Assembly: GCA_016207825.1 (NCBI GenBank)
Contig: JACQZI010000008.1
Span: forward strand, 78,133 to 142,132
DNA: 64,000 nt
Direction: 5' to 3'
Origin: Planctomycetota bacterium
GTDB taxonomy: Bacteria; Planctomycetota; MHYJ01; JACQXL01; JACQZI01
The notes under the pieces are model-generated. The model saw nothing but the letters and a program-made list of their open reading frames with translations. It was not told the DNA's origin and made no database searches. The position numbers were made by a program, and so were the translations under genes. Of this stretch, positions 29,940 to 54,987 are shown in pieces. Positions within the stretch are counted from its first letter, which is position 1; every line of letters starts with the position of its first letter.

Positions 29940-29968
29940 TTGACAACAATCCCATTTTAAATTACAAA
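29940..29968 (+). promoter_or_regulatory. Candidate promoter of the first sigma-54 activator gene
   Basis: A perfect TTGACA (29940-29945), 17-bp spacer and TACAAA (29963-29968) stand 10 bases before the GTG start at 29979. The arrangement mirrors that before the paralogous activator (52948-52976). Confidence 0.45.
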
Positions 29969-29978
29969 TGAGGGTATT

Positions 29979-31949
29979 GTGAAACGCAAGAAGTTATCTG
30001 AATATCTCACCCAAATCAAAGTAGCTTTGGGTAAAAAAGATGATTTTAAAGTAAAACGATATGGTGAGATTGCCCTAAAAAAAATATCCGGCCTTTCTTT
30101 TTCCCCTGTTGAGGAATATGAGTTTTATGATGTTTTGGGGTCTGTTTACTATAATCTGTCTGAATTTTCCAAGTCACTGGATATGTTTTACAAGGCGCAT
30201 TTAGCGGCACTGAAGCATCGTTTTAAACCGGCTGAAATCTGTTATCCTTTACTTAGGATGGCCCATAATTTCCTGGTTATCGGAAACATCAAAGAGGCTT
30301 TTGAGCAATTCCAAAAGGCGGAAAAATATTATCAAAAATATGGTGATGGTGTTTTCCCTATGACCAGAGTGAGATATTTTACCGTTCTTCTTGGGTTGGG
30401 ATATTGCTATTTGCATAAGGGAGAGCTTGAAAAAGCGAATGAAATAGTGGATACAAAAATTCCGGAAATTTTACAATCTTTAGACTACAAATTCGCGCCA
30501 ATGGATTATAACCACCTTAAAGGCGAGTATTTAATGGCTGTAAAAGAATATCATAAAGCCAAAGATGCGTTTAATGAATGCGTTAAAGTCGGCGACCAAT
30601 TTAATTTTCCACGCGGGTCTCTTGAAGCTAAAACCCACCTCGCCGCAATTGAAGTAATGGAAAATAATATCGATTCGGCATCCCGCATTCTGCAGAGGAT
30701 TATTAATGAGTCGAAACGTTTGAAATTAAATGATCTTGTTTGTGAAGCATCACTTATGCTCAGTAAGATTTACTTTATTAAAAATATCCCTGAAAAAGCC
30801 ATGTTGGTGGAAAAAAGAATCAAGCCGGTTTTAGCCAAGCTTGATATGATTTGGCTTTACGAAAAAACAAGAGAATTTGATAGGCTGTATCGCCAGTTAG
30901 ATATTAAAAATGATAAAAATTATTCTATGGCAAAAACCCCGGAAGTTCTGATTGATGTCTTAAAACAGCGCCAGGGTTTATTGCCATATCGAAAGGTTGT
31001 TATAGGGAATTCGGTGGTTATGCAGGATGTTTATAATTTAATAGAAAAGATTGCGCCGACAGATTTACCGGTTTTGATACAGGGTGAAACAGGGACAGGT
31101 AAAGAGCTTGTGGCTAATATTATTCATCAGAACAGCTTGCGCGCGAATGCGCATTGCCTGGCTTTTAACAGTGGGGCTTTACCGGAAACCTTGATAGAAA
31201 GCCACCTTTTTGGTTATACTAAAGGTGCTTTTACCGGAGCTGCCGGTGATAGCAAAGGATATATAGAACTCGCCTCAGGCGGAACGCTTTTTGTGGATGA
31301 GATTGCTAATATGCCGCCATCCATGCAGCAGAAACTATTGCGCATCTTGGAGGAAAAACTTTTGTGGCAGCTAGGAGCACAGAAGCCGATTCAGATAAAT
31401 ACACGTTTTATCTTTGCCAGCAATCAGAATATTGAACAAATGGTCCGGCAAAAACTATTCCGGGAAGATTTGTTTTATAGAATAAATACTATAGTTATTA
31501 ATCTTCCGCATTTACGCAACCGCAAGGAGGATATTCCTATTCTGGTCCAACACTTTCTCTCGAAACATTCTTCTGCTAAAATCAGTAACCTGCCTGTAAT
31601 TTCCCCTTCGGCAATGCAACTTTTGATTGCCTATCCCTGGCCAGGTAATGTTCGTGAATTGGAAAATGAAATAAAGAGGATATATGTTTTATATCCGGGG
31701 AATGGGGAAATCAATGAGTCTATGCTTTCCGAACCCATACGTCGTTACAAAAATGGTATTGGGTCATCTAATGCGAAAACCCTCAAGGAGTTGACAGAAT
31801 TATACCAGAAGAATATCATTACCGAGGCTTTACAAAGTTTTGGAGGCAGTGTCAGCCAGGCAGCGCGGGCTCTTGGATATGATAGGGTTAATCTTTACCG
31901 GAAGATGAAGCAATTAAAAATGATTTCATCTAAAATGTTACCAAAATGA
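29979..31949 (+). CDS. Sigma-54-dependent activator with TPR sensor (TPR-AAA+-Fis)
   Basis: The protein has 656 residues. Residues 1-330 are TPR-like helical repeats, with no receiver, GAF or PAS domain. The AAA+ domain has Walker A GETGTGK near 369, the sigma-54 contact loop GAFTGA at 416-421 and Walker B GGTLFVDE near 434. A Fis-type helix-turn-helix (about 625-650, LGYDRVNLYRKMKQ) ends the protein. It should remodel sigma-54 polymerase at the promoter 130 bp downstream and bind the dyad at 31956-31974. The start is GTG, because the nearby ATG at 29968 runs into a stop after three codons. It is about 50 percent similar along its length to the activator at 52987. Confidence 0.93.
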   Translation: MKRKKLSEYLTQIKVALGKKDDFKVKRYGEIALKKISGLSFSPVEEYEFYDVLGSVYYNLSEFSKSLDMFYKAHLAALKHRFKPAEICYPLLRMAHNFLVIGNIKEAFEQFQKAEKYYQKYGDGVFPMTRVRYFTVLLGLGYCYLHKGELEKANEIVDTKIPEILQSLDYKFAPMDYNHLKGEYLMAVKEYHKAKDAFNECVKVGDQFNFPRGSLEAKTHLAAIEVMENNIDSASRILQRIINESKRLKLNDLVCEASLMLSKIYFIKNIPEKAMLVEKRIKPVLAKLDMIWLYEKTREFDRLYRQLDIKNDKNYSMAKTPEVLIDVLKQRQGLLPYRKVVIGNSVVMQDVYNLIEKIAPTDLPVLIQGETGTGKELVANIIHQNSLRANAHCLAFNSGALPETLIESHLFGYTKGAFTGAAGDSKGYIELASGGTLFVDEIANMPPSMQQKLLRILEEKLLWQLGAQKPIQINTRFIFASNQNIEQMVRQKLFREDLFYRINTIVINLPHLRNRKEDIPILVQHFLSKHSSAKISNLPVISPSAMQLLIAYPWPGNVRELENEIKRIYVLYPGNGEINESMLSEPIRRYKNGIGSSNAKTLKELTELYQKNIITEALQSFGGSVSQAARALGYDRVNLYRKMKQLKMISSKMLPK

Positions 31950-31955
31950 AACAAC

Positions 31956-32077: not shown

Positions 32078-32093
32078 TGGCACGAAATTTGCT
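32078..32093 (+). promoter_or_regulatory. Sigma-54 promoter, exact consensus (first module)
   Basis: TGGCAC-GAAAT-TTGCT matches the -24/-12 consensus TGGCAC-N5-TTGCW at every position, with the GG and GC separated by ten bases. The predicted transcript start is near 32104, 40 bp before the small protein gene. Confidence 0.9.
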
Positions 32094-32143: not shown

Positions 32144-32401
32144 ATGAGTAAAAGTGTTGCAGGGACTCTTAATGTAGAAACCAAGAACCCCGTTTGCCCC
32201 CCGTTAACAACTGGGGATATTGTCACTCTTCGAGGTAAGCCAATGGTTAAAATAATAAAACCCGGTAACAAGAACGCTGGGAGAGAATTACGCCTGACAC
32301 AAAAGGAAGAATGGGTTTATTTGTCCATCCAGGATAATTCCAACGAACATTACTTCTTTGATGGGGAGCATCTTGTCGGTTGGAAGAAAACTAAAAGATG
32401 A
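32144..32401 (+). CDS. Small first-gene protein of a sigma-54 module, family not recognised
   Basis: The protein has 85 residues, no signal peptide and no membrane segment. It is clearly homologous to the 90-residue product at 50652. Shared words are CPPLT, DI.T..GKP, KIIKP/KVIKP, EWVY/EWIY, EHYFF and V.WKKT. The pattern of short hydrophobic strands suggests a small beta-barrel (SH3-like). This is inference. It is the first gene after a sigma-54 promoter in both modules, so it may be a regulator, chaperone or dosage-critical adaptor for the exported proteins behind it. AAGGAG precedes the ATG. Confidence 0.85.
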   Translation: MSKSVAGTLNVETKNPVCPPLTTGDIVTLRGKPMVKIIKPGNKNAGRELRLTQKEEWVYLSIQDNSNEHYFFDGEHLVGWKKTKR

Positions 32402-32423: not shown

Positions 32424-34439
32424 ATGGGGGAAAGCATTTGTTTTATTGATCGTCGTAAATTGATTAAATCCTTTAAAATTTTTAGTGTCAACCTTGCCAT
32501 TCTTTTAATAGTGTACTCTTTATCTTTTGCAGATAACTGGTCAGAGACTACCTTTACAGAAGGCGTTTTTACCTCAACCATGGCGGCTAATGATAATAAT
32601 AACCTTACGCTATACTCAAGCGGTATTCGAAAAGTTAATACGGGAAGGACAGGCGACGCTGACATTATGCTGAATTCCGGCGGAACCAGGCATTTAACAC
32701 GCGATTCTAACAATGTCCTTCATATTGTCTGGGAAACGGGCGGTTATGTTTATTATTCTTCCTCAAGTAATGAAGGCACGACCTGGGCGGCGGCGACCAC
32801 CGTTTGGAATACCAATACTAATATTATATGTTCTGATATTATTGTGGACGGTAATAATAATATCCATTGTGTTTTTGCATATAATGCCAGTGATGATAAC
32901 AGGATGTATCACAGGAGAAAAACTGCCGCAGGCGCATGGGATGCGACCCGTACAGTAAATGCCGGGCATGCTTCTTCGGACGAGGCAATATATATGCCCC
33001 AGTCTGTTGTAGATTCCGCGAATACGCTTTATATAATTTATGACCGCGCCCACTATAGAGGTTACGGGATGAAATCGTTTGATGGCGCTAACTGGAGCGC
33101 CGTAACGGCAATATATGACCAGGGTAGTAATGATGCTTATTACCAGGCGGCTCAAGCAATAGGCACCAATTTGTATCATATCTCCCGTATGTCTAGCGAT
33201 CAATATTATTATTTTATCAGGCGGACCGGCGGCGCTTGGGTTACTCCTCATGTGGCAATAACTAATTTTAAGGCGCTCTATCCTTCTATGATTGTGGATA
33301 AAGACGATAATATCTGGGTTTTTCTGAATGATATTACATCCAGTCCATATCCTTTAAAAGCCCGAAAATATACGGTATCTACCAATACATGGGATGCTGC
33401 CTGGACAACCATAGATTCCGGGGCGTCTTCTTGCGCCTATCCTTCGGCTACGGTGAATTCAGCGGGTGATATCTATGTTTTTTATAATATAGGAGCTAAT
33501 ATATATTATAAAGTGAGGAATTATTCCACAGGCGTTTGGGGAGCAAGGACTCAGTTGACAGACAGTGCTACAGACGGTGCTTGTTACTTTCCAAATGTAA
33601 AATACCAGCGATATAACCATCATCTGCCGGACAAAATTGAATTAACATGCCGTCAAGGGGCAGGAGCTCCTTATAACATATATTATATAGCTATTGACAA
33701 TTCTTATGTCGCTACAGGCACCTATATTTCATCGGCGATTACTGCCGCGGATGTTTCTTACTGGGGATTTTTGAATTATACCATTGTCTCTCCTGCCAAT
33801 ACGGCTTTAACCGTAGATGTATTAAATTCATCTGATAATTCGTTGTTGGTGGCGAGTGTTCCTTCCGGCACTAATTTACAAGAGGCATATCCCGCGACAT
33901 TTAACGGAATTAGCGGTATAAAACTCAGGGCGAATTTATCAACATCTGACCAAGAGTGCACGCCGACCTTATCAGATTGGAGGATAGATTATTACTCCGG
34001 GACAGTGGTTACCACTACCAACTGGGTGGATTTAATTAACGGCGCTCCCATACGGATGGGGCAATCGGTTGCCATGGTGAAATTCGATATGAAAACCGTT
34101 TCCGGAGCGTCTTACTGGAAAAAGATAAGGATAGATAAAGGGTTAAAAACATATACCAATATTGCCTGCCCTGATAGCAAAATAGAAATTCAAATATGGT
34201 GTGAAAATAACGGTAACGGTTTTTGGGATATCGGCGATATGTTTATTGCAAAGGATTCATTCGGAAGCGGTGTTGCCTGGATTAATACGAAACGATGGCT
34301 GGTGACGACTACTTCCAAGACTTACTATATTGTTTACAAGCTGTCAAGCGATATCGGCGGGGGACAAAGGGCTGGAGTAAAAATATTAGATAGCAGTTAT
34401 CTTGAATTTGAGAATGCGACATGCGTAGGCGTTCCTTAA
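32424..34439 (+). CDS. Exported propeller-like protein with conserved C-terminal domain (first module)
   Basis: The start at 32424 is chosen because AGGAGG stands eight bases before it. This gives 671 residues and a signal peptide ending near SLSFA. An upstream in-frame ATG at 32358 lies inside the previous gene and has no such site. Residues about 60-420 hold repeats with a VVDSAN-type ..D..N.(I/L)(H/Y).V pattern, probably propeller blades. Residues 430-520 form a beta domain, and 528-671 are a C-terminal domain shared with the products at 34510 and 50994, ending QRAGVKILDSSYLEFENATCVGVP-like. I infer surface or extracellular location. The function is unknown. Confidence 0.85.
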   Translation: MGESICFIDRRKLIKSFKIFSVNLAILLIVYSLSFADNWSETTFTEGVFTSTMAANDNNNLTLYSSGIRKVNTGRTGDADIMLNSGGTRHLTRDSNNVLHIVWETGGYVYYSSSSNEGTTWAAATTVWNTNTNIICSDIIVDGNNNIHCVFAYNASDDNRMYHRRKTAAGAWDATRTVNAGHASSDEAIYMPQSVVDSANTLYIIYDRAHYRGYGMKSFDGANWSAVTAIYDQGSNDAYYQAAQAIGTNLYHISRMSSDQYYYFIRRTGGAWVTPHVAITNFKALYPSMIVDKDDNIWVFLNDITSSPYPLKARKYTVSTNTWDAAWTTIDSGASSCAYPSATVNSAGDIYVFYNIGANIYYKVRNYSTGVWGARTQLTDSATDGACYFPNVKYQRYNHHLPDKIELTCRQGAGAPYNIYYIAIDNSYVATGTYISSAITAADVSYWGFLNYTIVSPANTALTVDVLNSSDNSLLVASVPSGTNLQEAYPATFNGISGIKLRANLSTSDQECTPTLSDWRIDYYSGTVVTTTNWVDLINGAPIRMGQSVAMVKFDMKTVSGASYWKKIRIDKGLKTYTNIACPDSKIEIQIWCENNGNGFWDIGDMFIAKDSFGSGVAWINTKRWLVTTTSKTYYIVYKLSSDIGGGQRAGVKILDSSYLEFENATCVGVP

Positions 34440-34461
34440 TATGAAAAATAATCGCCGGAAT

Positions 34462-34479
34462 CCCGACCGAAGCGTCGGG
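34462..34479. repeat. CCCGAC-N6-GTCGGG palindrome at the 5' edge of the glycine-rich protein gene
   Basis: A perfect 6-bp stem with a 6-base loop lies between the previous stop codon and the favoured start at 34510. It belongs to the dispersed family also seen at 9597, 27723 and 43521. Confidence 0.65.
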
Positions 34480-34509
34480 TTATCGGTGTGCCATAAATCA
34501 AGGAGCTTT

Positions 34510-36858
34510 ATGAGAAACTGGAATTTAATAATTGTGAAGCGAAGCGCCCCCTACGGCCGAAGGTCCCTATTATCTGGTGCCCTGTTCGGCCGAGCGCTCA
34601 CGACGAAGACCGTAATGAAATGGAGCGGGGGAGTCCCGATTCTCATCGGGGGGATTTGTTTGGTAATTGTGTTTTGGTCATTGAAATTTGCGCCGCCTCT
34701 GGCGGCGGATTCCTGGTCACAGACGACCTTTACCGATGGAACATTTTCCGATACGGTGACATCTACCGGAGCGGCTGACGTTAAGTTGAAAAATGATATG
34801 GATATCAGCACCATCGGCAATGGTTCTGATGGTGCAATAACGATAGCCGCTTCCAAAAATATTAATACAGATATTATTGCCTCTGAACGGACGGCCGCCG
34901 ATGGCGTTAACTGGCAAATTTCAAATGATGTTGCTTCAGGGCAGGCTACGATTTCATCAGGAGTTGCAAGACCGAACGGATTTGCCATCGGAGATGAAAT
35001 CATGATAATTAATCTTAAAGGCACATCGGGCAATTATGCCGGTGTGGGATTATATGAGTTTAAAAGAATTACCGCGCTTCCTGATGGCACTTCTATTACG
35101 GTCAATTCTAATCTGACTAATTCCTATGACGGAACTACCCAGAAGATAATGGTCCAGCGCGTGCCGAATTATACTGATGTAACTATTAATGGCGGTATTT
35201 CGCTTACCTGCAGTTCCTGGAATGGAATAACCGGAGGGGTTGTTGCATTTAGGTCTAATGGCATAGTCAGTATCAATGCTACCGGTTATATTGACGCGTC
35301 AGGAAAAGGATTTAGGGGCGGCACAGGGGTGGCATATAATGTAAACGCCCCGGCCGGGGAAACACATTTTGGGGGATTGTATAATTCAGGTGGGGTTCAT
35401 GGCGCTAACGCTGTGGCTACTGCGAATCCGGGAGGCGGAGGAGGTGGCGGCGGTGCTTCAAGTTTTACGGGTGCGTCAGGAACTTCCGGGTCTGCAGGGG
35501 GTGGCGGTGGTGGAGCATATTATATGGGTTGGTTTCCCAATGGCGGTGGTGGCGGTGGTGGTGGATATGGTTCTATCGGCGTAAACGGCGCAGGGTTTAC
35601 TATGGGAGCTTCGGCCTCAGGGGTTACTGGTGGAACTGGAGGTAATGGAGGTAGCGGTGCTTCGTATGCTTATGCAGGCGGTGGAGGCGGAGGCGGAACA
35701 TATGGGGATTCTCAAACATTAAATAGCCATGCGTATTTAGGCGCAGGCGGCGGCGCAGGAGGAGGAGCTTTTAGTTGGGCTTCTGATGGCGGTCCCGGTG
35801 GTAATGGAGGAACCGGCGGCGGTATTGTTTTTATCGGAGCTAACCAGATTATTTGCGGTAATATTCTGGCAGACGGCGTCCCAGGAAGCGCAGGGTTAAA
35901 GGTTGACCGTGCGGCTCGTGGTGGTGGCGGTGGCGGAGCCGGCGGCTCAATAATAATCATGGCGTATGACATACAAAATAATAATTTAATCAGGGCGAAT
36001 GGTGGAGCAGGCGGAACTTCATCTACTTATGCAGGCGGCGCAGGCGGCGGCGGAAGGACCTATGCCATATATAATTATTTGAACGGTAACGCACCGACTC
36101 CAAATTATGCGGTTGGGGCATATTGCGTTGCTCCCGGCACATATATTTCACCCCCAATTACGAGCACCGTTTTCTATTGGGGCGTCTTGACCTATGCTAA
36201 GACCACTCCGGTTGGCACTAATTTGACCGTGGATATATTAAACGCCTCGGATAATTCACTCTTGGTTGCCAATGTTTTATCAGGGACTGCTTTGTGGGAT
36301 ACCTACCCCTCTACTTTTAACGGTATGACAAGCATTAAATTGAGATGTAATTTTTCTCCTTCAGGTGATGGGCAAACACCGACCCTCTCCGATTGGGGAA
36401 TACATTATACAGGCGGTAATACAACGGTTACCACGTCTAACTGGGCGGATTTGTTGAATGGCAATCCTGTTAAAATGGGACAATTAATTGCATACGTCAA
36501 ATTTGATATGCAATCGGCAGGCGGAGCCGCTATCTGGAAACGTTTCCGCGTTGATAAAGGGGTGAAAACATACGGCAACATTGCCTGCCCGGATAATAAA
36601 ATAGAGGTGCAAGTCTGGTGCGAAAATACGGGTAACGGTTTATGGGATGCAGGTGATACATTTATCGCCAAAGGAAATTTCACCAATGGCGCCTGCTGGC
36701 TTAACATGAAGCGCTGGAAAGTAACGATGGCTTCCAGGACATATTATATTGTCTATGAGCTGTCAAATGACATTGGCGGTGGCCAGAGGGCGGGAGTAAA
36801 AATATTAGATAGTAGTTATCTTGAATTTGAAAATGCTTCGTGTGTAGGGGTTCCTTAA
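34510..36858 (+). CDS. Exported glycine-rich protein with the shared C-terminal domain (first module)
   Basis: An ATG at 34441 also opens the frame, but AGGAG stands four bases before 34510, so this start is preferred (782 residues). The membrane-crossing signal is pushed to about residues 42-66 by GC-palindrome codons (34635-34650), making an unusually long n-region. Residues about 290-520 are extremely glycine-rich, with runs of six to eight Gly and alternating Ala, Ser and Tyr, reminiscent of PGRS or elastic surface proteins. A beta domain (about 545-635) and the shared C-terminal domain (638-782) follow. It is probably translated from the same message as the previous gene, whose stop is 70 bp upstream. 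Confidence 0.85.
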   Translation: MRNWNLIIVKRSAPYGRRSLLSGALFGRALTTKTVMKWSGGVPILIGGICLVIVFWSLKFAPPLAADSWSQTTFTDGTFSDTVTSTGAADVKLKNDMDISTIGNGSDGAITIAASKNINTDIIASERTAADGVNWQISNDVASGQATISSGVARPNGFAIGDEIMIINLKGTSGNYAGVGLYEFKRITALPDGTSITVNSNLTNSYDGTTQKIMVQRVPNYTDVTINGGISLTCSSWNGITGGVVAFRSNGIVSINATGYIDASGKGFRGGTGVAYNVNAPAGETHFGGLYNSGGVHGANAVATANPGGGGGGGGASSFTGASGTSGSAGGGGGGAYYMGWFPNGGGGGGGGYGSIGVNGAGFTMGASASGVTGGTGGNGGSGASYAYAGGGGGGGTYGDSQTLNSHAYLGAGGGAGGGAFSWASDGGPGGNGGTGGGIVFIGANQIICGNILADGVPGSAGLKVDRAARGGGGGGAGGSIIIMAYDIQNNNLIRANGGAGGTSSTYAGGAGGGGRTYAIYNYLNGNAPTPNYAVGAYCVAPGTYISPPITSTVFYWGVLTYAKTTPVGTNLTVDILNASDNSLLVANVLSGTALWDTYPSTFNGMTSIKLRCNFSPSGDGQTPTLSDWGIHYTGGNTTVTTSNWADLLNGNPVKMGQLIAYVKFDMQSAGGAAIWKRFRVDKGVKTYGNIACPDNKIEVQVWCENTGNGLWDAGDTFIAKGNFTNGACWLNMKRWKVTMASRTYYIVYELSNDIGGGQRAGVKILDSSYLEFENASCVGVP
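34635..34650. repeat. CCCGAT-N4-ATCGGG palindrome inside signal-sequence codons
   Basis: A perfect 6-bp stem encodes VPILIGG within the hydrophobic core of the export signal. Together with the palindrome in the 10638 gene, this suggests that such elements are tolerated in signal peptides. Confidence 0.6.
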
Positions 36859-36928: not shown

Positions 36929-37477
36929 ATGATGAAAGTGAAAAAATGTATTATCATATGGTTAATTCTGGTAATAAGCACTATTACTATCTGCGCCGAA
37001 GGCAAAGGCTGTTGGGGGCAGGAGCTTAGCGAAAGGGTGGACACAGTAAGCGGAAGCAGTGGCGCAGGCGGCGGGAGCAGTGGAGGTGGCGGAGGAGGAA
37101 GCGGTTCAAGCGGAGGAGGTAATCCTGTTGTCCTGGTGCTTCCGGATAAACCGATGAATCCTCAACCGTTAAACGGTGCCTTGGGAATAAGCCGTCAGCT
37201 TGCCGCGACAAACGGCGCTTTGATATGCGAAGTTGCCGCTGACCCTTCTATAGAATATACGGTATATTTCGGAACTGATTATCCTTTGACCGAAAGTAAC
37301 TTTCTGACATGGGCCTACGACGACAATGATGGCGCAACAGACGGTATTTTAACGATTGATTTATCCGGATTATTGTTAAATATATTAGATCCCCAAACCA
37401 CATATTATTGGCGTGTTGATGCGGCCGGTTATGATGGAACTACCATCGGAGATACCTGGTGGTTTGTTACCCAGTAA
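36929..37477 (+). CDS. Short exported Ser/Gly-linker protein
   Basis: The protein has 182 residues: a signal peptide (about 1-24), the segment GCWGQELSERVDTVSGSSG, a Ser/Gly linker to about 65, then a beta domain with EYTVYFGTDYPL and TYYWRVDAAGYDG. It ends DTWWFVTQ. The Y..(Y/W)RV pattern resembles fibronectin-like modules that compare attribute pairs. Signal, linker and the last eight residues match the next gene almost exactly. It is the fourth gene of the first sigma-54 module, 70 bp after the glycine-rich protein. Confidence 0.8.
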   Translation: MMKVKKCIIIWLILVISTITICAEGKGCWGQELSERVDTVSGSSGAGGGSSGGGGGGSGSSGGGNPVVLVLPDKPMNPQPLNGALGISRQLAATNGALICEVAADPSIEYTVYFGTDYPLTESNFLTWAYDDNDGATDGILTIDLSGLLLNILDPQTTYYWRVDAAGYDGTTIGDTWWFVTQ

Positions 37478-37489: not shown

Positions 37490-38647
37490 ATGGGTAAAAT
37501 AAATAAATTTTTGGTTATTGCTTGTTGCTTAATCATGATTGCTTCTCTTTCAATCGGAGGCGAAGCGCGCGGTTGCTGGGGTCAGGAGCTTAGCGAAAGG
37601 GTGGACACAGTAAGCGGAAGCAGTGGTTCAGGTGACGGTAGCCGTGGAGGTGGCGGAGGAGGAAGCGGTTCAAGCGGCGATGGAGGCGGAACAGTAACGC
37701 AAGCAACTGGAGGTTGGGCCAGACAAACCCCATCCGGAGCGGGCGGATTGCCTGTAGGCAGGCGCTCTCACGGAATGGTTTGGGACGGAATCAGGGTGAT
37801 AATGTTCGGCGGGTATGACGGTGCCAATAATCGAAACGACCTCTGGTGGTACGGCCCTTCCGCCAATACTTGGACGCAGATGCGCCTAAACGGGGCGGCT
37901 GGCTCACCATCAGCAAGGCAGGCTTTTACTATGGTGTGGGATGGGACAAGAGTAATCATGTTTGGAGGCTCAACCGGGGCCGCTTTCCCAAATGACCTTT
38001 GGTGGTATAATCCGAATACGAATACCTGGACACAACAGATTGCTGATGGTGTCGCCACTTCTCCTATCGGCAGGTTTAATGCCAGTATGGCCTGGGATGG
38101 AACCAGGGCGATTCTTTTCGGAGGGCAGGATATCTGGGAAACATTCCTTAATGATGTCTGGGCGTATAATCCGAATACGAATTCCTGGACACAGCTTTCG
38201 GCGCAAGGCGCGGCAGGCTCTCCTTCCGCCAGGACAGGGCATACGCTTGTCTCAAACGGTTCGGGTATTTTGCTCTTTGGCGGACTGGGTCCTCTGACGT
38301 CTTACCGGAATGATTTATGGCTTTATGATACGGTTGGCAACAGCTGGTCTGAATTGATTCCGAACGGCGCCGCGAATTCTCCCAATGCCAGATTATTCCA
38401 TTCCATGTCATGGTGCGGTAGCCAGGGAATTATGTTTGGCGGAAGTCTTCCAGGTTTACGAAATGATTTGTGGATATGTTCATCCGGAGGAAGCTGGACA
38501 CAGCGTATAAGTAACGGTGCGGCGACTTCACCGGCTGTGCGTGAGCGCGCCGGAATGGTCTGGGATGGCAGTAAAATTATCATGTTCGGCGGCGAAGGAG
38601 ATAATTCCAATGAATTGAGCGATACCTGGTGGTTTATTACGCAGTAA
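37490..38647 (+). CDS. Exported kelch-repeat protein
   Basis: The protein has 385 residues: a signal peptide, the same GCWGQELSERVDTVSG start and Ser/Gly linker as the previous gene, then six kelch-type repeats with the pattern MVWDG.R.IMFGG....NDLW.Y.P..N.W.Q. These should form one six-bladed propeller. The end is DTWWFITQ. The repeats resemble those in the exported protein at 50994 of the second module. It starts 12 bp after the previous stop, so the two are co-transcribed. The role is presumably surface binding. The ligand is unknown. Confidence 0.88.
   Translation: MGKINKFLVIACCLIMIASLSIGGEARGCWGQELSERVDTVSGSSGSGDGSRGGGGGGSGSSGDGGGTVTQATGGWARQTPSGAGGLPVGRRSHGMVWDGIRVIMFGGYDGANNRNDLWWYGPSANTWTQMRLNGAAGSPSARQAFTMVWDGTRVIMFGGSTGAAFPNDLWWYNPNTNTWTQQIADGVATSPIGRFNASMAWDGTRAILFGGQDIWETFLNDVWAYNPNTNSWTQLSAQGAAGSPSARTGHTLVSNGSGILLFGGLGPLTSYRNDLWLYDTVGNSWSELIPNGAANSPNARLFHSMSWCGSQGIMFGGSLPGLRNDLWICSSGGSWTQRISNGAATSPAVRERAGMVWDGSKIIMFGGEGDNSNELSDTWWFITQ
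37583..37677 (+). repeat. Recently duplicated signal/linker segment
   Basis: A 44-bp identical stretch (37019-37062 and 37583-37626) and a 33-bp identical stretch (37081-37113 and 37645-37677) are shared by the two adjacent genes. The rest of the two genes is unrelated, so domain shuffling or local gene conversion is indicated. Confidence 0.8.
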
Positions 38648-45218: not shown

Positions 45219-46019
45219 TCACTTTTGCGTTACTTTCATCTCCAGGTAAAAAAGCTTCACCGGGTCGTTGGCGAAATTGATAAACGACTTGCCGCCGGTT
45301 TCAAACGGGTATAAATTCAACGCCGGGTCAACAAACCCCTGCACCATCTCGTTGGTCTCGTCGTTCTGCACCTTGATTATATCCTGGCCGTAAGCGCTTT
45401 TGACAATAGCCGAGCCTGCCTGTATGATTCTCTGGTTAATCGCGGCTTTAAACGAGCCTTTCCTTCTTAGCTTGGTTAAACAGAACGGGTTGCCGGCAAT
45501 CAGTTTGTCGGATGATTGCAAGATACCTTCCACAATCGAATCCGCGGTCAGCCATAAAGCGACTAATGGTGCAATCCCCAGCCCTTCCGCACGCGTGCCG
45601 GTAAACATAAGCGTCCGGGCGGCCATGCCTCGCGCGTAATTTTCCTTGCTGTGGTCAACCGCATCTTTGAACCGCTTGGCAGGAATCCCGTCAACCGTTT
45701 CGTATGCCGCGTCTATCTTGGACTGGTATTTTTTGTAGGAGCGGCTTAAGTTAGCCGAATGCTTGGTAATAATGTCATTGGCGTCCAGCCCGGCCCGGCT
45801 GACAAAATCAGGATGGACCATATTCCGGTATTTCTTGGTCGCCACCCCGACCAGGCGCGATTGGTAATCCTCCTCGTTCTTTATTTTCATCTTGCGTTTT
45901 TCGTTGATGCGTTCGGCATTGACGTGAAAACCGTCACGCCACTGTTCGGCAATCCTTTGCGGAGACCAATCGCTTGGGCTTAAGTGCCTTATAAAATGGG
46001 TTAGTATCTTGTCCGGCAT
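45219..46019 (-). CDS. Conserved-looking cytosolic protein of unknown function
   Basis: The protein has 266 residues. The start at 46019 is fixed by GGAGGTG six bases upstream. A longer frame from 46121 has no such site. There is no signal peptide. It has a basic, lysine- and arginine-rich middle (about 45-125, KKYRNMVHPDFVSRAG and SRSYKKYQSK) and a more hydrophobic stretch (about 140-180), but I recognise no domain. The C-terminal half has VQGFVDPALNLYPFE. It stands alone between a HEAT lipoprotein gene (convergent) and a gene-free island that must hold its promoter. Confidence 0.65.
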   Translation of the reverse strand: MPDKILTHFIRHLSPSDWSPQRIAEQWRDGFHVNAERINEKRKMKIKNEEDYQSRLVGVATKKYRNMVHPDFVSRAGLDANDIITKHSANLSRSYKKYQSKIDAAYETVDGIPAKRFKDAVDHSKENYARGMAARTLMFTGTRAEGLGIAPLVALWLTADSIVEGILQSSDKLIAGNPFCLTKLRRKGSFKAAINQRIIQAGSAIVKSAYGQDIIKVQNDETNEMVQGFVDPALNLYPFETGGKSFINFANDPVKLFYLEMKVTQK

Positions 46020-46892
46020 ATTCACCTCCTCGTTAATACTCACCGCCAAGACCCAAAGGTCATGAGGGATGAGCCTGTTATTCTTCACTCCCGCCGGGTA
46101 GGGGAGGGGGTTAAAATCCAAAGCAAGTTATAGCCCCGTGAGTAACCCGGCACAGGCTAATTATCAGGAATATCAATCCTGCGGCAATATTCCGTCCGCC
46201 AACAGATAAAGGCATTATAGAAATAAATTATGCATATGTCAAGAATAATTTATGCCAATCGTATCTCCCACCCAACAAGATATCCCAGCTATGATATGTG
46301 TATTAATCACATTAACTATGTGTAATACCAACAATATACCTATGTTGAGATAAGATAAACTATATTATGGTGTTAGATTAATAATATATAGTTATTAGAT
46401 ATGGTATATATAACAATAACACAAATAATGTGTAATATTAACACATAGAATATCTAATGCCTAACTATAGTATATATTATGGTTAGATAAGATTTAAGTA
46501 ATAATAAGATATAATATAAGTAGATATAGCATTCGTATTATGTAGGGGGGACATACCCCCTATGTAGCACCCACATATAGTATAAATGGAGCATATGGTA
46601 GGTATGGGGAACCACGCTTAGTGATTGCCTTATGTGGATTATATGCTTGGCTGGTTATAAGGGGCGCTGTTATTAGAGTGCAGTGATATGCGTTAGAGTG
46701 ATTATCCATTATGGAGAGTTAGTATGCAGGCACGGCTTTATGCGATTTAGGGATAAAGGAAACTTGGGTGGGGATTTATTTCCTCTTTGCCAGATGGGAG
46801 TGGTAAGTCCTGCCCCACCGGTTTTAACCCGTCCTCCGTAGCAGTCAGCAGCTGCTATTGCGGGGGGTTAGATATGGCGAATGCCGATGGTA
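46020..46892. other. Second gene-free, TA-step-rich island
   Basis: No gene is supported here. From about 46240 to 46760 the sequence is dense in TA, ATAT, AATAATAT and GTGTAATA words and short imperfect repeats of AACACAxAATxTGTAAT type. It contains TAGGGGGG-ACATA-CCCCCTA (46543-46562), closely like the G6/C6 hairpin in the first island, again followed by TATG and an ATATAGTAT run. The two islands look like the same kind of element. Confidence 0.6.
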
Positions 46893-47066: not shown

Positions 47067-47070
47067 AGGG

Positions 47071-47839: not shown

Positions 47840-48187
47840 TCAGGAATTCAATTTGCTAAGAGCCGTTTTTATATCGGGTACGATGTCAATTATCTTATCC
47901 ACCCCCAGTAATCTAAATATATCTTTGACTTCTGAATGAGGGTTAACCAATATAATACTGCCTTTGTTTTCTTTGGTGACGGCGTGGACGCCCATGAAAA
48001 TCCCGGCCCCGACACTGGTCATATAATTTACTTTAGACAGGTCAACGACGATTTTATATTTCCCCTCATTTATTAGCTTATTGACGGAATCTTCAAGTTG
48101 GCGGCATGAATAAACATCGATGGTCCCTTCGAGCGAAAATATGATGGCGTTCTTTTCCGTGTTTTCCTGGATTTCGATTTGTAGCAT
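47840..48187 (-). CDS. STAS-domain protein (anti-anti-sigma factor type)
   Basis: The protein has 115 residues from ATG 48187, chosen because AAGGAGG lies eight bases upstream. A longer frame to 48244 has none. The STAS fold is shown by the central segment VDLSKVNYMTSVGAGIF, with the phosphorylatable serine at S58. Such proteins release a sigma factor or partner when dephosphorylated. No anti-sigma kinase or phosphatase is next to it. It follows the diguanylate cyclase gene after 69 bp on the same strand and is probably in its operon. Confidence 0.9.
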   Translation of the reverse strand: MLQIEIQENTEKNAIIFSLEGTIDVYSCRQLEDSVNKLINEGKYKIVVDLSKVNYMTSVGAGIFMGVHAVTKENKGSIILVNPHSEVKDIFRLLGVDKIIDIVPDIKTALSKLNS

Positions 48188-48256
48188 CTGGACAACCTCC
48201 TTTTTATTACGGTATCTTTTTAAAATACACGCAATAATTTCCATTCCAAAAGCTGG

Positions 48257-49198
48257 TTATTTGCCCCCTGCCTGCGCAACCAACCTGGTTCCCGTATCAA
48301 TTGATATACAATTACGCCCAGCTTTTTTGCTTTGATACATCAATTTATCAGCTTTTTTTATTACTCCATCTACGGTATCGGTTGTTTTCCCGATAATCGC
48401 ACCTATCGAGATGGTAAATTTGATATTATAAATACGAACCATAAATTTATGCTCTTCAACGGCACGGCGCAAGCGGTTTGCCAGGGTGGAAATTGAATCC
48501 TGGTTGATTCCCATGACGGTGGCAATAAATTCTTCTCCGCCCCAGCGCCCGAGTGAATCATATGGCCGTAAATTGCGCTTCAAGACGCCGGCGATAATCT
48601 TAAGCAGTTCATCGCCAGTATCATGCCCGTATTTATCGTTGACTTTTTTGAAATGATCGATATCGATAAAGAAAATCCCGAATTTCCATGAATAACGGGA
48701 AAGCTCATCCAGCCGCCTTTGGATATTCATTTCCAAATAGCGCCGGTTGCCTACCCCGGTCAGAGGATCAATATACGCCAGCAGTTCTTGTTCCGTCGCA
48801 TATTTGATGCCGGCCATTTTATAGATATTAACACAAGACAGGCCCACCGCGCCGATAATTTGATTATGCGCATTTTTGAGCGGTGCGGCACGCAGGTAAA
48901 TCGGCACCTGGTAGCCGTCTTTGTGATGAAGGTAAAATTCTTTTTCGTCGGCGCAGCCATATTTTATGGAATTTAATAGAATACATTGTTTTTGGTTGCA
49001 GGAATGGTCGCCGCTGCGGTCGAAATAGAAGAATTTTTTATTAGTACAGGGATGCCCGGTCACCGTTTGAGACCTTATCCCGGTTATTTTTTCCATAGAT
49101 CTGTTCCAGTACCTGATTTTCGCCTTGTTATCTATGACATACACTCCGTGAGAAATATTATCTAAAATATTCTTACAGAAATTACGACTCATATTCAT
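48257..49198 (-). CDS. PAS-GGDEF diguanylate cyclase
   Basis: The protein has 313 residues. A PAS domain (about 8-125) has four cysteines (C51, C67, C72, C82), a pattern that could bind metal or sense redox. The GGDEF domain (about 140-305) has the intact active site GGEEF at 220-224 and an RxxD inhibitory site at 211-214, five residues before it, so product inhibition by cyclic di-GMP is expected. There is no membrane segment, so the protein is cytosolic. AAAGGGAAAG precedes the ATG. The following STAS gene suggests a combined signalling unit. Confidence 0.93.
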   Translation of the reverse strand: MNMSRNFCKNILDNISHGVYVIDNKAKIRYWNRSMEKITGIRSQTVTGHPCTNKKFFYFDRSGDHSCNQKQCILLNSIKYGCADEKEFYLHHKDGYQVPIYLRAAPLKNAHNQIIGAVGLSCVNIYKMAGIKYATEQELLAYIDPLTGVGNRRYLEMNIQRRLDELSRYSWKFGIFFIDIDHFKKVNDKYGHDTGDELLKIIAGVLKRNLRPYDSLGRWGGEEFIATVMGINQDSISTLANRLRRAVEEHKFMVRIYNIKFTISIGAIIGKTTDTVDGVIKKADKLMYQSKKAGRNCISIDTGTRLVAQAGGK

Positions 49199-50411: not shown

Positions 50412-50470
50412 ATTGTTTCTCCTTTTGTCCTACCGGTTTAATACATCTCTTGTCGGCAAAACGCAACAAT

Positions 50471-50488
50471 TGTAGGCTTTTGGCTACA
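50471..50488. promoter_or_regulatory. Candidate activator binding dyad (second module)
   Basis: TGTAG-N8-CTACA forms a perfect-armed dyad whose full wording TGTAGGCTTTTGGCTACA resembles the one at 31956-31974. Its centre lies 117 bp upstream of the sigma-54 -24 GG. Confidence 0.55.
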
Positions 50489-50594
50489 ACTTGTATTATG
50501 ATTCTGTCTTATTCGTCATGAGGTGTTTTATCGTAACCGCTGTGTTTACATTCGGTTATAGCAATAAAAAAAACTATGGTGTTGCAGAAAAACT

Positions 50595-50610
50595 TGGCAC
50601 GATATTTGCT
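50595..50610 (+). promoter_or_regulatory. Sigma-54 promoter, exact consensus (second module)
   Basis: TGGCAC-GATAT-TTGCT matches the consensus completely, with GG and GC ten bases apart. Both sigma-54 promoters share the longer frame TTGGCACGAxATTTGCTATA, so they are clearly duplicates. Confidence 0.9.
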
Positions 50611-50651: not shown

Positions 50652-50924
50652 ATGAAAATTATGGATAGAGCAATTAGCTTTCTGAAGAAGAATAACTTCC
50701 GAAACCGGAATAATTTGTCATGTCCACCGTTAACGCCAAGCGATATTCTTACTGTGAAAGGCAAGCCTTCATTAAAAGTAATTAAGCCGTATAAGAAACA
50801 AAATGTGCTTGTTGAGCAGGCAGAACAGGAATGGATTTATGTGATTCTTAACCCAATGAAATCAAAAGAACATTATTTTTTCAAGGGTGGTTATTTAGTT
50901 AACTGGAAAAAAACCGCGTTGTAG
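50652..50924 (+). CDS. Small first-gene protein of the second sigma-54 module
   Basis: The protein has 90 residues and is a paralogue of the one at 32144. The shared core is SCPPLT.SDI.TVKGKP, KVIKP, EWIYV, KEHYFFKGG and VNWKKT, nearly half of all positions. The N-terminal 20 residues are basic and differ. There is no signal peptide. A later in-frame ATG at 50661 could also serve, since no clear ribosome site marks either. Its conserved place after a sigma-54 promoter suggests it is needed early in expression of the module. Confidence 0.82.
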   Translation: MKIMDRAISFLKKNNFRNRNNLSCPPLTPSDILTVKGKPSLKVIKPYKKQNVLVEQAEQEWIYVILNPMKSKEHYFFKGGYLVNWKKTAL

Positions 50925-50993: not shown

Positions 50994-52913
50994 ATGAAAA
51001 GCAAAAACCATAAAGAAATGATTCCTGTTTTAATGTTGCTTTTTCTGGCATGTTTTATGATTTATCCGGCAGGAAGGAATTTATTCCTCTTTGCCCAGAC
51101 CCAAATGGTTTTTAGCTTTACCGAATCTTTTTCAAACAACAACTATAAAGATGTTGTCAATACCACGGCTAACTGGAATACCGTGACAGGTTTGGTGTCC
51201 CTCATCAGCGGCGGTTCGTCAAATATATGGGATACGACAAAGCCTACCACTACAAATGCCCCGACCGCCAGAGCAAATTTCAGCGCTGTCTGGACAGGCT
51301 CCAAAATGATTGTTTGGGGCGGGCAAGATAGCGGAGGTTTTAAAAATAATGGCGGTGTCTACGACCCGGCAACTAACACCTGGGATACGACAAAACCAAC
51401 TACTACTAATGCCCCTTCTGCGCGAGGATATCACCGTGCTGTCTGGACAGGCTCAAAAATGATTGTCTGGGGAGGCTGGAATGGCAGTTCTGATTTGAAT
51501 AACGGCGGTATCTATGACCCGGCGACCGATACTTGGGATACGACTAAACCTACCACTACCGGTGCTCCTACGGCAAGGGATTGTTTCAGTGTAGTTTGGG
51601 ATAGCGCTAATAATAAAATGATTATCTGGGGTGGTTGGATAGATGCCAGCCAAAGTGATGTAAATAATGGCGGTATCTGGACATTATCAACCAACACCTG
51701 GGATACGACCAAACCTACCACTACTGGCGCCCCTTCTGCAAGAGAGTCACATAATGCAGTTTGGGATAGTCTTAATAACAAGATGCTTGTCTGGGGTGGT
51801 GCATGGTATGATGTTGACTTTGAAGAATATAGCTGTTATAATAACGGAGGTTCGTATAATCCGGCAACCAATACATGGGATTTAACTAAACCCACTTCTA
51901 CCGGTGCTCCTACAGCAAGGTTAGCCCATAGTGCGGTTTGGGACAGCACTAACAATAAGATGATTGTTTGGGGCGGTGATGACAGTTTTGACGGTGTAGG
52001 ATATAATAACGGCGGATTTTATAATCCAGCAACTAATACATGGGATTTGACTAAACCGACTACCACCGGCGCGCCTAATAACACCAGGCATGATGCCGTA
52101 TATACCGGAACTAAGATGATTGTTTGGGGTGGCTGGAGCGGAGCGGCTTACCAAAACACGGGCGCTTTTTACATAATTTCCGCCAGCGAATATACGACAC
52201 CGGCAATTGCCCGTTCTTTGACGGTGGATAACACACCGGATACGATTAATTCTGTAATACTATCTGTTTCCGCAACTTTGCCAGCAAATACAACGATTAC
52301 CTATGAAATCACCGCTAATTCCGGCACAAATTGGTATCAGGTAACACCAACGAATGATTTCGCTATTCCAGTCGTAGGTCGGGCAAGCGATCTCAGGTGG
52401 CGGGCGAATCTTTCCACCGCAGATAGCCAGCAGACGCCGTTATTGGATTGGGTAACTATTACATATTCCACCGCCGCAGTGGTTACGACTTCCAATTGGA
52501 CCGCATTAACTAACGGTAACACGCCGGTAAGAATGGGACAGTCTGTCTGTCATGTTAAATTTAATATGAAAACGGATTTTGGCACGGCATACTGGAAACG
52601 TTTCCGCATAGATAAAGGCATTACTGGTGTTACTACTCCCGTTCCTGATAATAAAATAGAAGTGCAAATATGGGTGGAAAATAATAACAACGGGTTCTGG
52701 GATGCTAATGATATCCTGATAACTAAAGGCGGTTTTGTTAACGGTGTTTGTTATCTTAATATGCGGCAATGGCAGGTAACGACCACGACTAAAACCTATT
52801 ATATTGTTTATAAACTGGCCGGGGATATTGGCGGAGGCCAGCGCGCCGGAGTAAAGATAGCGGATAGTTCTTATTTAGAGTTTGAAAATGCTACGTGTGT
52901 AGGTGTTCAGTAG
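50994..52913 (+). CDS. Exported kelch-like repeat protein with the shared C-terminal domain (second module)
   Basis: The protein has 639 residues with AAGGAG before the ATG and a signal peptide of about 33 residues. Residues 70-395 hold about seven repeats with WDTTKPTTT.APTAR......VW.....K(M/L)(I/V)(V/I)WGG, kelch-like blades separated by a Thr-Pro-rich motif. Residues 400-490 are a beta domain similar in position to that of the first-module proteins. Residues 495-639 match their C-terminal domain and end YLEFENATCVGVQ. Repeats are similar enough at DNA level to allow slippage. I infer a surface adhesin or scaffold. Confidence 0.88.
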   Translation: MKSKNHKEMIPVLMLLFLACFMIYPAGRNLFLFAQTQMVFSFTESFSNNNYKDVVNTTANWNTVTGLVSLISGGSSNIWDTTKPTTTNAPTARANFSAVWTGSKMIVWGGQDSGGFKNNGGVYDPATNTWDTTKPTTTNAPSARGYHRAVWTGSKMIVWGGWNGSSDLNNGGIYDPATDTWDTTKPTTTGAPTARDCFSVVWDSANNKMIIWGGWIDASQSDVNNGGIWTLSTNTWDTTKPTTTGAPSARESHNAVWDSLNNKMLVWGGAWYDVDFEEYSCYNNGGSYNPATNTWDLTKPTSTGAPTARLAHSAVWDSTNNKMIVWGGDDSFDGVGYNNGGFYNPATNTWDLTKPTTTGAPNNTRHDAVYTGTKMIVWGGWSGAAYQNTGAFYIISASEYTTPAIARSLTVDNTPDTINSVILSVSATLPANTTITYEITANSGTNWYQVTPTNDFAIPVVGRASDLRWRANLSTADSQQTPLLDWVTITYSTAAVVTTSNWTALTNGNTPVRMGQSVCHVKFNMKTDFGTAYWKRFRIDKGITGVTTPVPDNKIEVQIWVENNNNGFWDANDILITKGGFVNGVCYLNMRQWQVTTTTKTYYIVYKLAGDIGGGQRAGVKIADSSYLEFENATCVGVQ

Positions 52914-52947
52914 AGTTCCAGACTGCCCTGATGGCCGGGATATTCAT

Positions 52948-52976
52948 TTGACAATTCCCTGGTTACTTTGTATATA
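52948..52976 (+). promoter_or_regulatory. Strong promoter of the second sigma-54 activator gene
   Basis: A perfect TTGACA (52948-52953), 17 bp, TATATA (52971-52976). The ATG at 52987 lies 11 bases beyond the -10, so the message should begin within about four bases of the start codon. Confidence 0.65.
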
Positions 52977-52986
52977 TACTAATGCC

Positions 52987-54987
52987 ATGAAACCCCAAAA
53001 ACAATTATCTGATTTCCTCGTTTTAATGAAGTCTGTTTTAGCCAAAGGAAAATATGTCCAAGCAGCTCGGATGGGAGAGCCCGTTTTAAAATCACTTTCT
53101 TCCTTTTCCGGTTCCAGTGTAAACAAGTATCTTTTGTATTACTTTTTGTCGAGTGCTTATTTCTATTTGGAGAAATACTCCCAGGCATTAGATGTTTTGA
53201 ATAAGGCAAGCTTGATTTCCAAAAACCTTTCCTCTTCTCACCAGGTCCTTGCTTCCAATATGCTTGGGCGTGTTTTTATGGGCATACGGAATACCAGGCA
53301 AGCGTTTGGACACTACCAGAAAGTCTACCGTTATTATAAGGAATATGGAACTAAAAATGACCCTTTAAGTGAAAAACAATATTTTATTACACTTACAGGT
53401 TTAGCATATTGTTATCTTTATACAAACGAACTGGAAAAAGCCGGTGGAATCATTGAAAAAGAATTACCGGATATTTTGCCTTCCATGTTTAGCGGTAATT
53501 CTATAGGGATGTTAGATTATTATCATCTTAAAGGGGAATATCTTATCGCACGAAAAGATTACGCGGATGCGCGGAAATCATTTTTGGAATGTGTTAAAAT
53601 CGGCGAACAATGCAGTTTTTTCAGGGGTGTTCTTGAGGCGAGAACGCATCTGGCGATAATTGATATTCTGGAAGGGCGGTTGGATTCGGCTATTCAGTTA
53701 TTGAGAAATTTGTTCCGTGAAGCGTCGCGGTTAAAGCTTCGTAGCCTGGTTTGTGAATCCGGCCTTCTGTTAAGCAAAAGTTTCCATCTTAAGGGATATC
53801 CTGAAAAAGCCGAAATGATCGAAAAACGGATTAAACCCATTCTCGACAAACTTGATACGATTTGGTTATATGAGAAAATACGGGAATTCAATAAGATCCA
53901 TCGGCAGTTGCAAACGACTGATTTCAGCAGGCAATCGTTTAAGCCCGACCGTATTTTATTATCCGTGCCTATCCCGGATAGCCTGTCAGATGTTTTCCGG
54001 AAGCGTTCAGAAAACGCATCTTATAAGGAAATAATTATTGGTAATTCCTTGGTGATGCATGACACCTGGAACTTAATCGAAAAAATAGCCCCTACGGATT
54101 TGCCGGTGTTAATCCAGGGAGAAACTGGGACAGGCAAGGAATTGGTTGCCAATATTATTCATCACCGCAGTTTGAGAGCTAAAACAACATGGTTGGCTTT
54201 CAATAGCGGCACAACTCCGGAGCCGCTTATAGAAACGACGCTTTTCGGCCATACTAGAGGCGCATTTACCGGAGCGGAAAAAGAAAGGAAAGGCTATATT
54301 GAATTAGCCGATAATGGGACTCTTTTTATAGATGAAATTGCTAATATGTCTCAGGCGATGCAGCAAAAACTATTGAGGGTATTAGAGGAAAAACTCATCT
54401 GGCGGGTAGGTGACCAAAAATCTATCCCGGTTGATACGCGTTTTGTCTTTGCTTCTAACCAGGATATAGAAAAGATGGTTCAGCAAAAACTATTCCGGGA
54501 AGATTTATTCTATCGGATTAATACGATTGTAATTACTCTTCCTCCCCTGCGCGACCGCAAAGACGACATCCCATTGTTAATCCAGCACTTCCTGCAAAAA
54601 CATGGCCGCTTTTCGTCCCATCTATTGCCGGTCACGTCTCGTTTCTCGCCTTCTGCTTTTGCTCTTCTCGCATCCTACGCCTGGCCCGGTAATGTTCGTG
54701 AGCTGGAAAATGAGATGAAAAGAATATCCGTATTATATTCACAAGCAAAAATCATCACAGAGGAAATGCTATCGGCGACAATCAGAAGCTATATTCCCTC
54801 CTTTTCTCTTGCAGACAGCCATGCGGCAGGCTTAAAAGAGTTGAGGGATTCTTTTGAGAGAAATATTATTACAGAAACATTACAAAGGTGTAATAATAAT
54901 GTTGCGGAAGCTTCGCGTTTGCTTAAGTATGACCGCGCAAGTTTGTATAAGAAGGCTAAAAGTTTGAAGATAAGATTTCCGGGATAG
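52987..54987 (+). CDS. Sigma-54-dependent activator with TPR sensor, paralogue of the 29979 product
   Basis: The protein has 666 residues from ATG 52987. An in-frame upstream ATG at 52903 is rejected because its 28 codons cover the promoter and have no match in the paralogue. TPR-like helices occupy 1-340. Walker A GETGTGK is near 378, GAFTGA at 425-430, and Walker B GTLFIDE follows. A Fis-type helix-turn-helix (LKYDRASLYKKAKS) ends the protein. No receiver or ligand domain is seen, so the signal is probably a protein or peptide bound by the TPR region. It follows the operon it should control, whereas the paralogue precedes its operon. Confidence 0.93.
   Translation: MKPQKQLSDFLVLMKSVLAKGKYVQAARMGEPVLKSLSSFSGSSVNKYLLYYFLSSAYFYLEKYSQALDVLNKASLISKNLSSSHQVLASNMLGRVFMGIRNTRQAFGHYQKVYRYYKEYGTKNDPLSEKQYFITLTGLAYCYLYTNELEKAGGIIEKELPDILPSMFSGNSIGMLDYYHLKGEYLIARKDYADARKSFLECVKIGEQCSFFRGVLEARTHLAIIDILEGRLDSAIQLLRNLFREASRLKLRSLVCESGLLLSKSFHLKGYPEKAEMIEKRIKPILDKLDTIWLYEKIREFNKIHRQLQTTDFSRQSFKPDRILLSVPIPDSLSDVFRKRSENASYKEIIIGNSLVMHDTWNLIEKIAPTDLPVLIQGETGTGKELVANIIHHRSLRAKTTWLAFNSGTTPEPLIETTLFGHTRGAFTGAEKERKGYIELADNGTLFIDEIANMSQAMQQKLLRVLEEKLIWRVGDQKSIPVDTRFVFASNQDIEKMVQQKLFREDLFYRINTIVITLPPLRDRKDDIPLLIQHFLQKHGRFSSHLLPVTSRFSPSAFALLASYAWPGNVRELENEMKRISVLYSQAKIITEEMLSATIRSYIPSFSLADSHAAGLKELRDSFERNIITETLQRCNNNVAEASRLLKYDRASLYKKAKSLKIRFPG

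Follow-up and report, generated by a model that had tools for sequence, protein, structure and literature searches.

Parallel, probably insulated sigma-54 switches for exported proteins in a Planctomycetota bacterium

Why would a bacterium keep two similar sigma-54 modules, each with its own activator, close together on one contig? The window considered here (the whole analyzed stretch, 64,000 nucleotides of a Planctomycetota genome) contains two such loci, and the original prediction was that they represent a duplicated, signal-inducible surface or secretion system. The two loci belong to a much larger family, whose members probably work as parallel and largely insulated sigma-54 switches, each controlling exported surface proteins in which the head varies and the tail, probably a sorting or anchoring unit, stays constant. 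The first locus, in which the activator (A1) precedes its operon, has the following features.

29979..31949, +: activator A1 (656 aa), with an N-terminal TPR region, a sigma-54 AAA+ domain with GAFTGA, and a Fis-type HTH
31937..31952, +: shared upstream element GTTACCAAAATGAAAC, which is GTTAC-N6-GTAAC with one mismatch and overlaps the A1 stop codon
31955..31975, +: cassette-specific inverted repeat CTATAGTC-gtttt-GACTACAG, centered at -113 relative to the promoter; putative A1 operator
32078..32093, +: exact -24/-12 promoter TGGCACGAAATTTGCT
32144..32401, +: S1, a small protein (85 aa) lacking a signal peptide, first gene of the operon
32424..34439, +: exported protein with weak BNR-type propeller similarity and a C-terminal D domain
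34005..34436, +: D domain of the first exported protein
34441..36858, +: exported protein (805 aa) with a region like the AgmC N-domain (below the curated cut-off), a glycine-rich center, and a C-terminal D domain
36424..36855, +: D domain of the second exported protein
36929..37477, +: small exported protein in the same direction, a probable member of the operon
37490..38647, +: exported kelch-repeat protein lacking a D domain

In the second locus, the activator (A2) is the last gene of the operon.

50470..50489, +: cassette-specific inverted repeat TTGTAG-gcttttgg-CTACAA, centered at -115.5; putative A2 operator
50595..50610, +: exact -24/-12 promoter TGGCACGATATTTGCT
50652..50924, +: S2, a small protein (90 aa), first gene of the operon
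50994..52913, +: exported kelch-propeller protein with a C-terminal D domain
52479..52910, +: D domain of the third exported protein
52987..54987, +: activator A2 (TPR-AAA+-Fis), final gene of the S2-D3-A2 operon; its open reading frame (694 aa) spans 52903 to 54987, and the homologous start is the ATG at 52987

Most of what had been proposed for these loci was borne out. Both activators match Sigma54_activat, the AAA lid, and the Fis-type HTH_8, and their TPR matches fall within the first third of the protein; the GAFTGA loop within the AAA+ domain of both copies, together with the Fis-type HTH and the upstream palindromes enriched at -113 (putative activator sites), places them among the bacterial enhancer-binding proteins (bEBPs). 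The two promoters are the sole exact matches to TGGCAC-N5-TTGCW within the window, and sigma-54 control is supported by two rpoN genes in the genome, so that both parts of a sigma-54 regulon, promoter and sigma factor gene, are present. The small proteins are indeed homologous (45% identity) and form one family, here called S, in which 13 residues are invariant over 10 copies. The three large exported proteins share a C-terminal domain, here called D, that is 62 to 66% identical among them, and an exported or surface destination of the cargo is supported.

The number of modules is where the original prediction fell short. At least 16 TPR-AAA+-Fis activators are dispersed through this genome, each beside an exact TGGCAC-N5-TTGCW promoter, which rules out a simple two-copy duplication. 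The activator lies directly upstream of its own promoter in 15 of 16 cases, and the operon-end position of A2 is the one exception. Genome-wide, the promoter pattern has 39 matches versus none for the reversed control pattern; the promoter cores are near identical, and the commonest form is the one found in the second locus. The genome also holds 10 intact S genes, one S remnant, and about 32 D matches. Because many contigs break off within a D gene, the real number of cassettes probably exceeds 16. Apparent gene deserts 3' of some promoters proved to be mostly giant or open-ended ORFs. The word "secretion" also needs qualification: as machinery, a secretion system is not what the cassettes encode, since they encode exported cargo and a regulator, yet one of them adjoins a cluster of type II secretion pseudopilin genes.

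How could so many similar activators be kept apart? Among the paralogs, which share 51 to 57% identity with A1 across most of their length (16 paralogs in all, A1 included), conservation is highest in the AAA+ motor (76%), lower in the TPR region (44%), and lowest in the HTH (38%); three paralogs carry GAFTDA in place of GAFTGA. Similarity in the TPR region is uncorrelated with similarity in the HTH (r = -0.17), and a pair of comparisons makes the point concretely. The activator at C8:170951 shares 77 to 92% of its TPR region with that at C6:54222, with an HTH identity of 35% and different operators; compared with a cassette from another family of the order, the same activator shows 81% identity in the HTH and 34 to 53% in the TPR region, and the operators are similar (79% of 28 bp). 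Judged by these alignments, sensor and DNA-binding domains are reshuffled, and thus inputs and outputs can be re-paired.

The cassette-specific inverted repeats about 113 bp 5' of the promoter, which are new here, provide the other half of the argument. They occur at -118 to -109 in 14 of 24 cassettes, versus a mean of 1.7 and a maximum of 7 in 300 shuffles; they peak sharply in position, and their sequence is different in each cassette. The remaining 10 of the 24 show no clear palindrome there. A solo promoter at C3:3189, upstream of an exported ORF of more than 1,000 aa, carries a near letter-for-letter copy of the C6 operator. Across all pairs, HTH similarity and operator similarity are significantly correlated (r = 0.28 at -128 to -100), but the correlation is just as strong in a control stretch (r = 0.26 at -100 to -72), and we do not take it as proof. 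Since this weak correlation extends beyond the operator stretch, the case for one-to-one recognition rests on the position of the repeats and on the exchange of domains at C8:170951. On these grounds, we infer that each activator would bind its neighboring palindrome.

A second palindrome, GTTAC-N6-GTAAC, is also new here and is shared among cassettes. All nine exact copies lie upstream of sigma-54 promoters, with none in a 398-kb control; when up to one mismatch is allowed, there are 18 copies in 13.65 kb upstream of sigma-54 promoters versus 8 in 697 kb. This element may be the site of a common regulator. It is absent from several cassettes, including the second locus of the window.

What is being switched? 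The D domain is a constant unit of 140 residues behind variable heads (kelch, RCC1, LamG, AgmC-like, and Ig). Its amino acid identity is 71%, versus 38% at fourfold sites (random expectation, 26%); with synonymous sites near saturation, this identity reflects purifying selection, and recent duplication or gene conversion is ruled out. D proteins end in ...SSYLEFENATCVGVP and lack a PEP motif, a transmembrane helix, or a basic tail, so they are not PEP-CTERM/exosortase substrates by that definition. D most likely serves as a tail for sorting or anchoring that a common export machinery reads, although co-occurrence has pointed to no machinery partner for it, which counts against the idea. The gene neighborhood suggests that D proteins are possibly exported through type II secretion: the pseudopilin genes GspG, I, J, and K lie directly 5' of one activator.

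The small protein S lies directly 3' of the sigma-54 promoter for 8 of 10 copies in this genome and in all 4 cassettes in other genera. Its motif order (GKP ... EWxY ... YFFxxGxLVGW) looks similar to that of the BamE/SmpA small domain (PF04355), but S lacks a lipoprotein signal, and PF04355 has no match in the genome even at an E value of 10. A phage DsbA-like match in 1 of 10 members (E = 0.0096, below the cut-off) is taken as chance, and structure models from AF2 (mean pLDDT, 45 for S and 40 for D) are too low in confidence to use. That the modules could not be matched to a named system still stands, in that neither S nor D has a Pfam, NCBIfam, or PDB family above threshold; searches of genome contigs (S and D), viral contigs (S), and plasmids returned no named relatives. 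Of the 392 genomes of the phylum that were covered, only members of this order have S or the TPR activator, and the cassette layout recurs with adhesin-like cargo in two further genera of the order. The proposed co-occurrence with TPR activators holds for S, found in 3 of the 392 genomes with the activator in all three; D, in contrast, is also present at a few sites where no activator is visible. Cassettes with similar TPR domains do not have correspondingly similar S proteins, evidence against the idea that S is a cassette-specific ligand of its own TPR domain. S may be an accessory or feedback protein.

In the proposed mechanism, a one-component enhancer-binding protein (TPR sensor, AAA+ motor, and Fis-type HTH) would receive a signal through its TPR domain and bind a cassette-unique palindrome about 113 bp 5' of a near-identical sigma-54 promoter. 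The bound activator would then switch on an operon for exported proteins, often headed by the small cytosolic S, and the cell would in this way select the surface or secreted proteins that it displays. Copy number, architecture, promoters, palindrome enrichment, reshuffling, selection on D, and the co-occurrence of S with the activator can be read from the sequence itself. Divergence of operators and HTH against a constant background of promoter, motor, and D tail would make the switches parallel and largely insulated, and since each appears to read its own DNA address, many separately controlled changes of the cell surface are suggested. A bolder version is tentative and, in our view, somewhat doubtful: at least 16 mutually insulated switches, assembled from reshuffled TPR and HTH domains, would each use its own palindrome plus a common override (GTTAC-N6-GTAAC, partly in the activator stop codon) to choose among surface proteins with one new sorting domain, and S would be a feedback or export cofactor.

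Could all of this be an ordinary lineage-specific expansion, in which duplicates spread together with their regulator, all activators act on all promoters, and the copies provide dosage or redundancy? The near-identical promoter cores, the strongly conserved motor, and the shared palindrome are consistent with that view, and enhancer-binding proteins, when abundant, can act from solution. The duplications, however, are not recent, given the near saturation of D fourfold sites and the limited identity of the activators to A1, and both the poorly conserved HTH and the fixed-position palindromes that differ among cassettes argue against it as well; we regard this reading as unlikely. A related question is whether the family's true operator is the shared palindrome, with the -113 repeats playing a secondary role or none. 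It is strongly enriched 5' of sigma-54 promoters, and one copy, at C37:25248, sits at about -112, but its absence from several cassettes and the sharp peak of the -113 repeats make this improbable.

Equally improbable to us is a self-regulated secretion unit in which S assists the D proteins as export chaperone or partner, with the TPR activator monitoring the state of export. S is small, lacks a signal peptide, lies beside the cargo genes, and is restricted to genomes with TPR activators, and pseudopilin- or prepilin-like genes adjoin cassettes both in this genome and in genome G004. Against this, 6 of 16 cassettes retain an activator and D cargo with S missing or broken (C11, C23, C25, C37, and C38, plus the remnant at C5:19018), the cargo found with S in other genera has no D, and S and TPR do not covary. 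If the insulated switches that we favor are real, nature would have supplied a set of orthogonal sigma-54 activator/operator pairs in which promoters and motors are near identical, useful for decoding how the Fis-type HTH reads DNA, and such switches would show individual control of a large surface protein repertoire in an uncultivated bacterium. Two protein families, S and D, that lack a Pfam or NCBIfam name are added as well.

How does this arrangement compare with known systems? The likeness to AgmC, an adventurous gliding motility protein, consists of an N-domain match (NF047640) in one D protein of the window (E = 2.5e-21; 76.1 bits versus a cut-off of 275), which falls short of the family and is only a lead. 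The literature searched contained no example of an activator-promoter-cargo cassette massively amplified into paralogs. Sigma-54 has been described as a controller of the bacterial exterior (Francke et al. 2011, PMC3162934; Desulfovibrio vulgaris regulome, PMC4641369), and the cassettes fit that description, with cell-exterior genes behind sigma-54 promoters and activator sites upstream, often by at least 100 bp; TPR activators are unmentioned in Francke et al. A further parallel is PEP-CTERM/EpsH (Haft et al. 2006, PMC1569441), in which many exported proteins likewise share a C-terminal domain and each has a sigma-54 promoter and an upstream activator site. In that system a single two-component activator, PrsR (PrsK-PrsR), acts on every gene by way of a common motif, and a short PEP/transmembrane signal forms the tail; here, in contrast, the tail is 140 aa long with neither a PEP motif nor a transmembrane helix, and the one-component TPR activators number at least 16, each next to its own operon, with operators that differ by cassette.

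Both modules that the original prediction placed in the window were recovered where it had put them upon re-analysis of the sequence. Each contains one TPR-AAA+-Fis activator; the exact -24/-12 sigma-54 promoters lie at 32078 and 50595, and the window has no other exact match; and the homologous first genes encode proteins of 85 and 90 aa that are 45% identical (family S). The exported proteins do have a C-terminal domain in common (domain D, 140 residues), with three copies in the window. The activator lies before the promoter in copy 1 and after the operon genes in copy 2, as follows.

Window, ATG at 52987: start of the copy 2 activator, 73 bp beyond where the exported kelch protein ends

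Given this spacing, the activator closes an S-D-activator operon. The following gene pairs were also seen.

Window 47840-49198 (-): PAS-GGDEF-like and STAS-like genes, between the two modules
L063:10737-12127: a similar pair, downstream of C25:9799, a solo sigma-54 promoter

The activator family has 16 members in the 2.89-Mb draft genome containing the window (G000; 42 contigs), one of them divided between two ORFs and all clearly apart from about 9 other, more distant sigma-54 activators. The genome also has two rpoN genes and 39 exact TGGCAC-N5-TTGCW sites versus 0 for the reversed pattern. There are 10 intact S genes, 1 broken S gene, and 32 D matches; contig ends cut several D genes, and the copy number is therefore a lower bound. 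An exact promoter adjoins all 16 cassette activators, which lie directly upstream of it in every case but window copy 2, the only one with the activator at the end of the operon. D proteins follow in 15/16 cassettes, and in the sixteenth (C6) the contig stops 1.7 kb past the promoter. Of the 10 cassettes with S, 8 have it as their first gene.

Some solo promoters of G000 also precede large exported proteins. Those at C38:5327 (L070) and C4:18897 (L052) have identical upstream DNA with a CTTGTGCACGATGCACAAG palindrome, and each is followed by an HTH-type protein of 112-115 aa and an exported protein of >1,200 aa, which at C4:18897 has RHS and beta-helix repeats; these loci constitute a second cassette type, a small protein plus a giant. 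A TTTCATTAA...TTAAATGAGACA-type upstream motif is common to the C25 solo promoter and that at C5:12914. Behind the solo promoter C25:23000 lie the following.

L064:8187-18694 (contig C25): three large exported proteins, two of which have weak multicopper oxidase matches and PEP-CTERM-like, GPEP-hydrophobic-basic C-terminal tails

Among nine genomes of the order, S occurs in two more genera (G003 and G004), with the order activator, promoter, S in 4/4 S cassettes, followed, where the contig extends far enough, by large exported proteins without D. More activator-promoter pairs in these genomes drive exported ORFs without S, and one such operon of G004 encodes prepilin-like proteins. In a survey of 392 genomes of the phylum, S was found in 3 genomes, and 4 have the TPR activator; all of these belong to this order, and each S-bearing genome has the activator. 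The predicted association thus held for S. D is likewise limited to this order, and a few of its copies have no visible activator (C14, C15, C8:317 kb, and the end of C10), in part because contigs stop there. In G005, another genus of the order, sigma-54 promoters face each other about 195 bp apart in four places (C72, C92, C111, and C129; L130-L133), and these pairs look like a small repeated element.

Two kinds of palindrome lie upstream of the promoters. There are 9 copies of GTTAC-N6-GTAAC in 711 kb, each of them upstream of a sigma-54 promoter, and none in a 398-kb control set. In six cassettes the center of an exact copy falls near -133 or -143, a distance of roughly two or three helical turns from the -113 site described below. 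The end of the activator gene, with its final codons and stop, usually overlaps this element. Window copy 1 has the corresponding DNA with one mismatch and reads it in a different frame, and the C27 copy is located outside the activator gene; conservation is thus of the DNA and not of the protein end. We also scanned 24 cassettes (16 from G000, 5 from G004, and 3 from G003) for inverted repeats, counting from the first base of TGGCAC; these cluster at -118 to -109 in 14/24, versus a mean of 1.7 and a maximum of 7 in 300 shuffles. Their sequences vary by cassette (GTATTATCA-ttt-TGATAATAC, GTGTGGA-ttttg-TCCACAC, and TGTAAAC-cgca-GTTTACA among them), which is the appearance that would be expected of separate operators for separate activators.

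Activator conservation is lowest in the HTH (38%, versus 76% in the AAA+ domain), and TPR similarity and HTH similarity are uncorrelated. The activator at C8:170951 has a TPR region like that of C6:54222 (77-92%) and an HTH like that of a G004 activator (81%), whose cassette also has a putative operator similar to that of C8:170951; this natural swap agrees with operator recognition by the HTH. The C6 operator recurs almost letter for letter at solo promoter C3:3189, upstream of an exported ORF of >1,000 aa. Taken over all cassettes, HTH and operator show a weak Mantel correlation that is not confined to the operator, so that recognition by the HTH is something we still infer.

D, which extends to the C terminus of the exported proteins, has 71% amino acid identity versus 38% at fourfold-degenerate sites (random, 26%), and strong selection thus acts on it. 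Searches of Pfam, NCBIfam, and PDB gave no family match above threshold. The heads of the cargo proteins include kelch, RCC1, and BNR-like propellers and LamG, Ig-like, and AgmC-like regions; those of the cargo in relatives are Big_1, He_PIG, and PKD domains, as commonly seen in adhesins. A GspG-I-J-K cluster lies immediately upstream of the C38 activator, and D-like domains occur on the following protein.

L051:10446-13946 (-), contig C3: secretin-domain protein whose N terminus carries two distant D-like domains

Based on these two observations, export of D proteins by type II secretion would be a reasonable, if unproven, route. A further family, with the C-terminal motif GGxSHLD...LxLEVKVSQV, sometimes adjoins D genes; the one member scanned had no Pfam match.

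L059:12026-12826: family member
L061:6523-7323: family member
L054:14999-15799: family member
L062:6586-8640: family member
Window 45219-46121 (-): possibly a further member

The DNA itself shows the cassettes with their promoters and palindromes, the domain reshuffling, selection acting on D, and the joint occurrence of S and the activator. Beyond this, we posit a model in which the TPR domain receives a signal and, from its site at -113, the activator reaches the sigma-54 polymerase through a loop and turns on its own operon, with D serving the sorting or anchoring of the exported proteins and S acting as an accessory. In window copy 2, the activator within the operon would presumably be activated by itself, forming a positive feedback loop.

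S and D are two unnamed protein families. The published arrangement nearest to this one is that of PEP-CTERM and PrsR, in which a single activator and a single motif are used for all members (PMC1569441); in contrast, each cassette operon has its own activator and, mostly, its own putative operator. Given that sigma-54 control of the cell exterior is a known theme (PMC3162934, PMC4641369), the cassette is a new variant of that theme.
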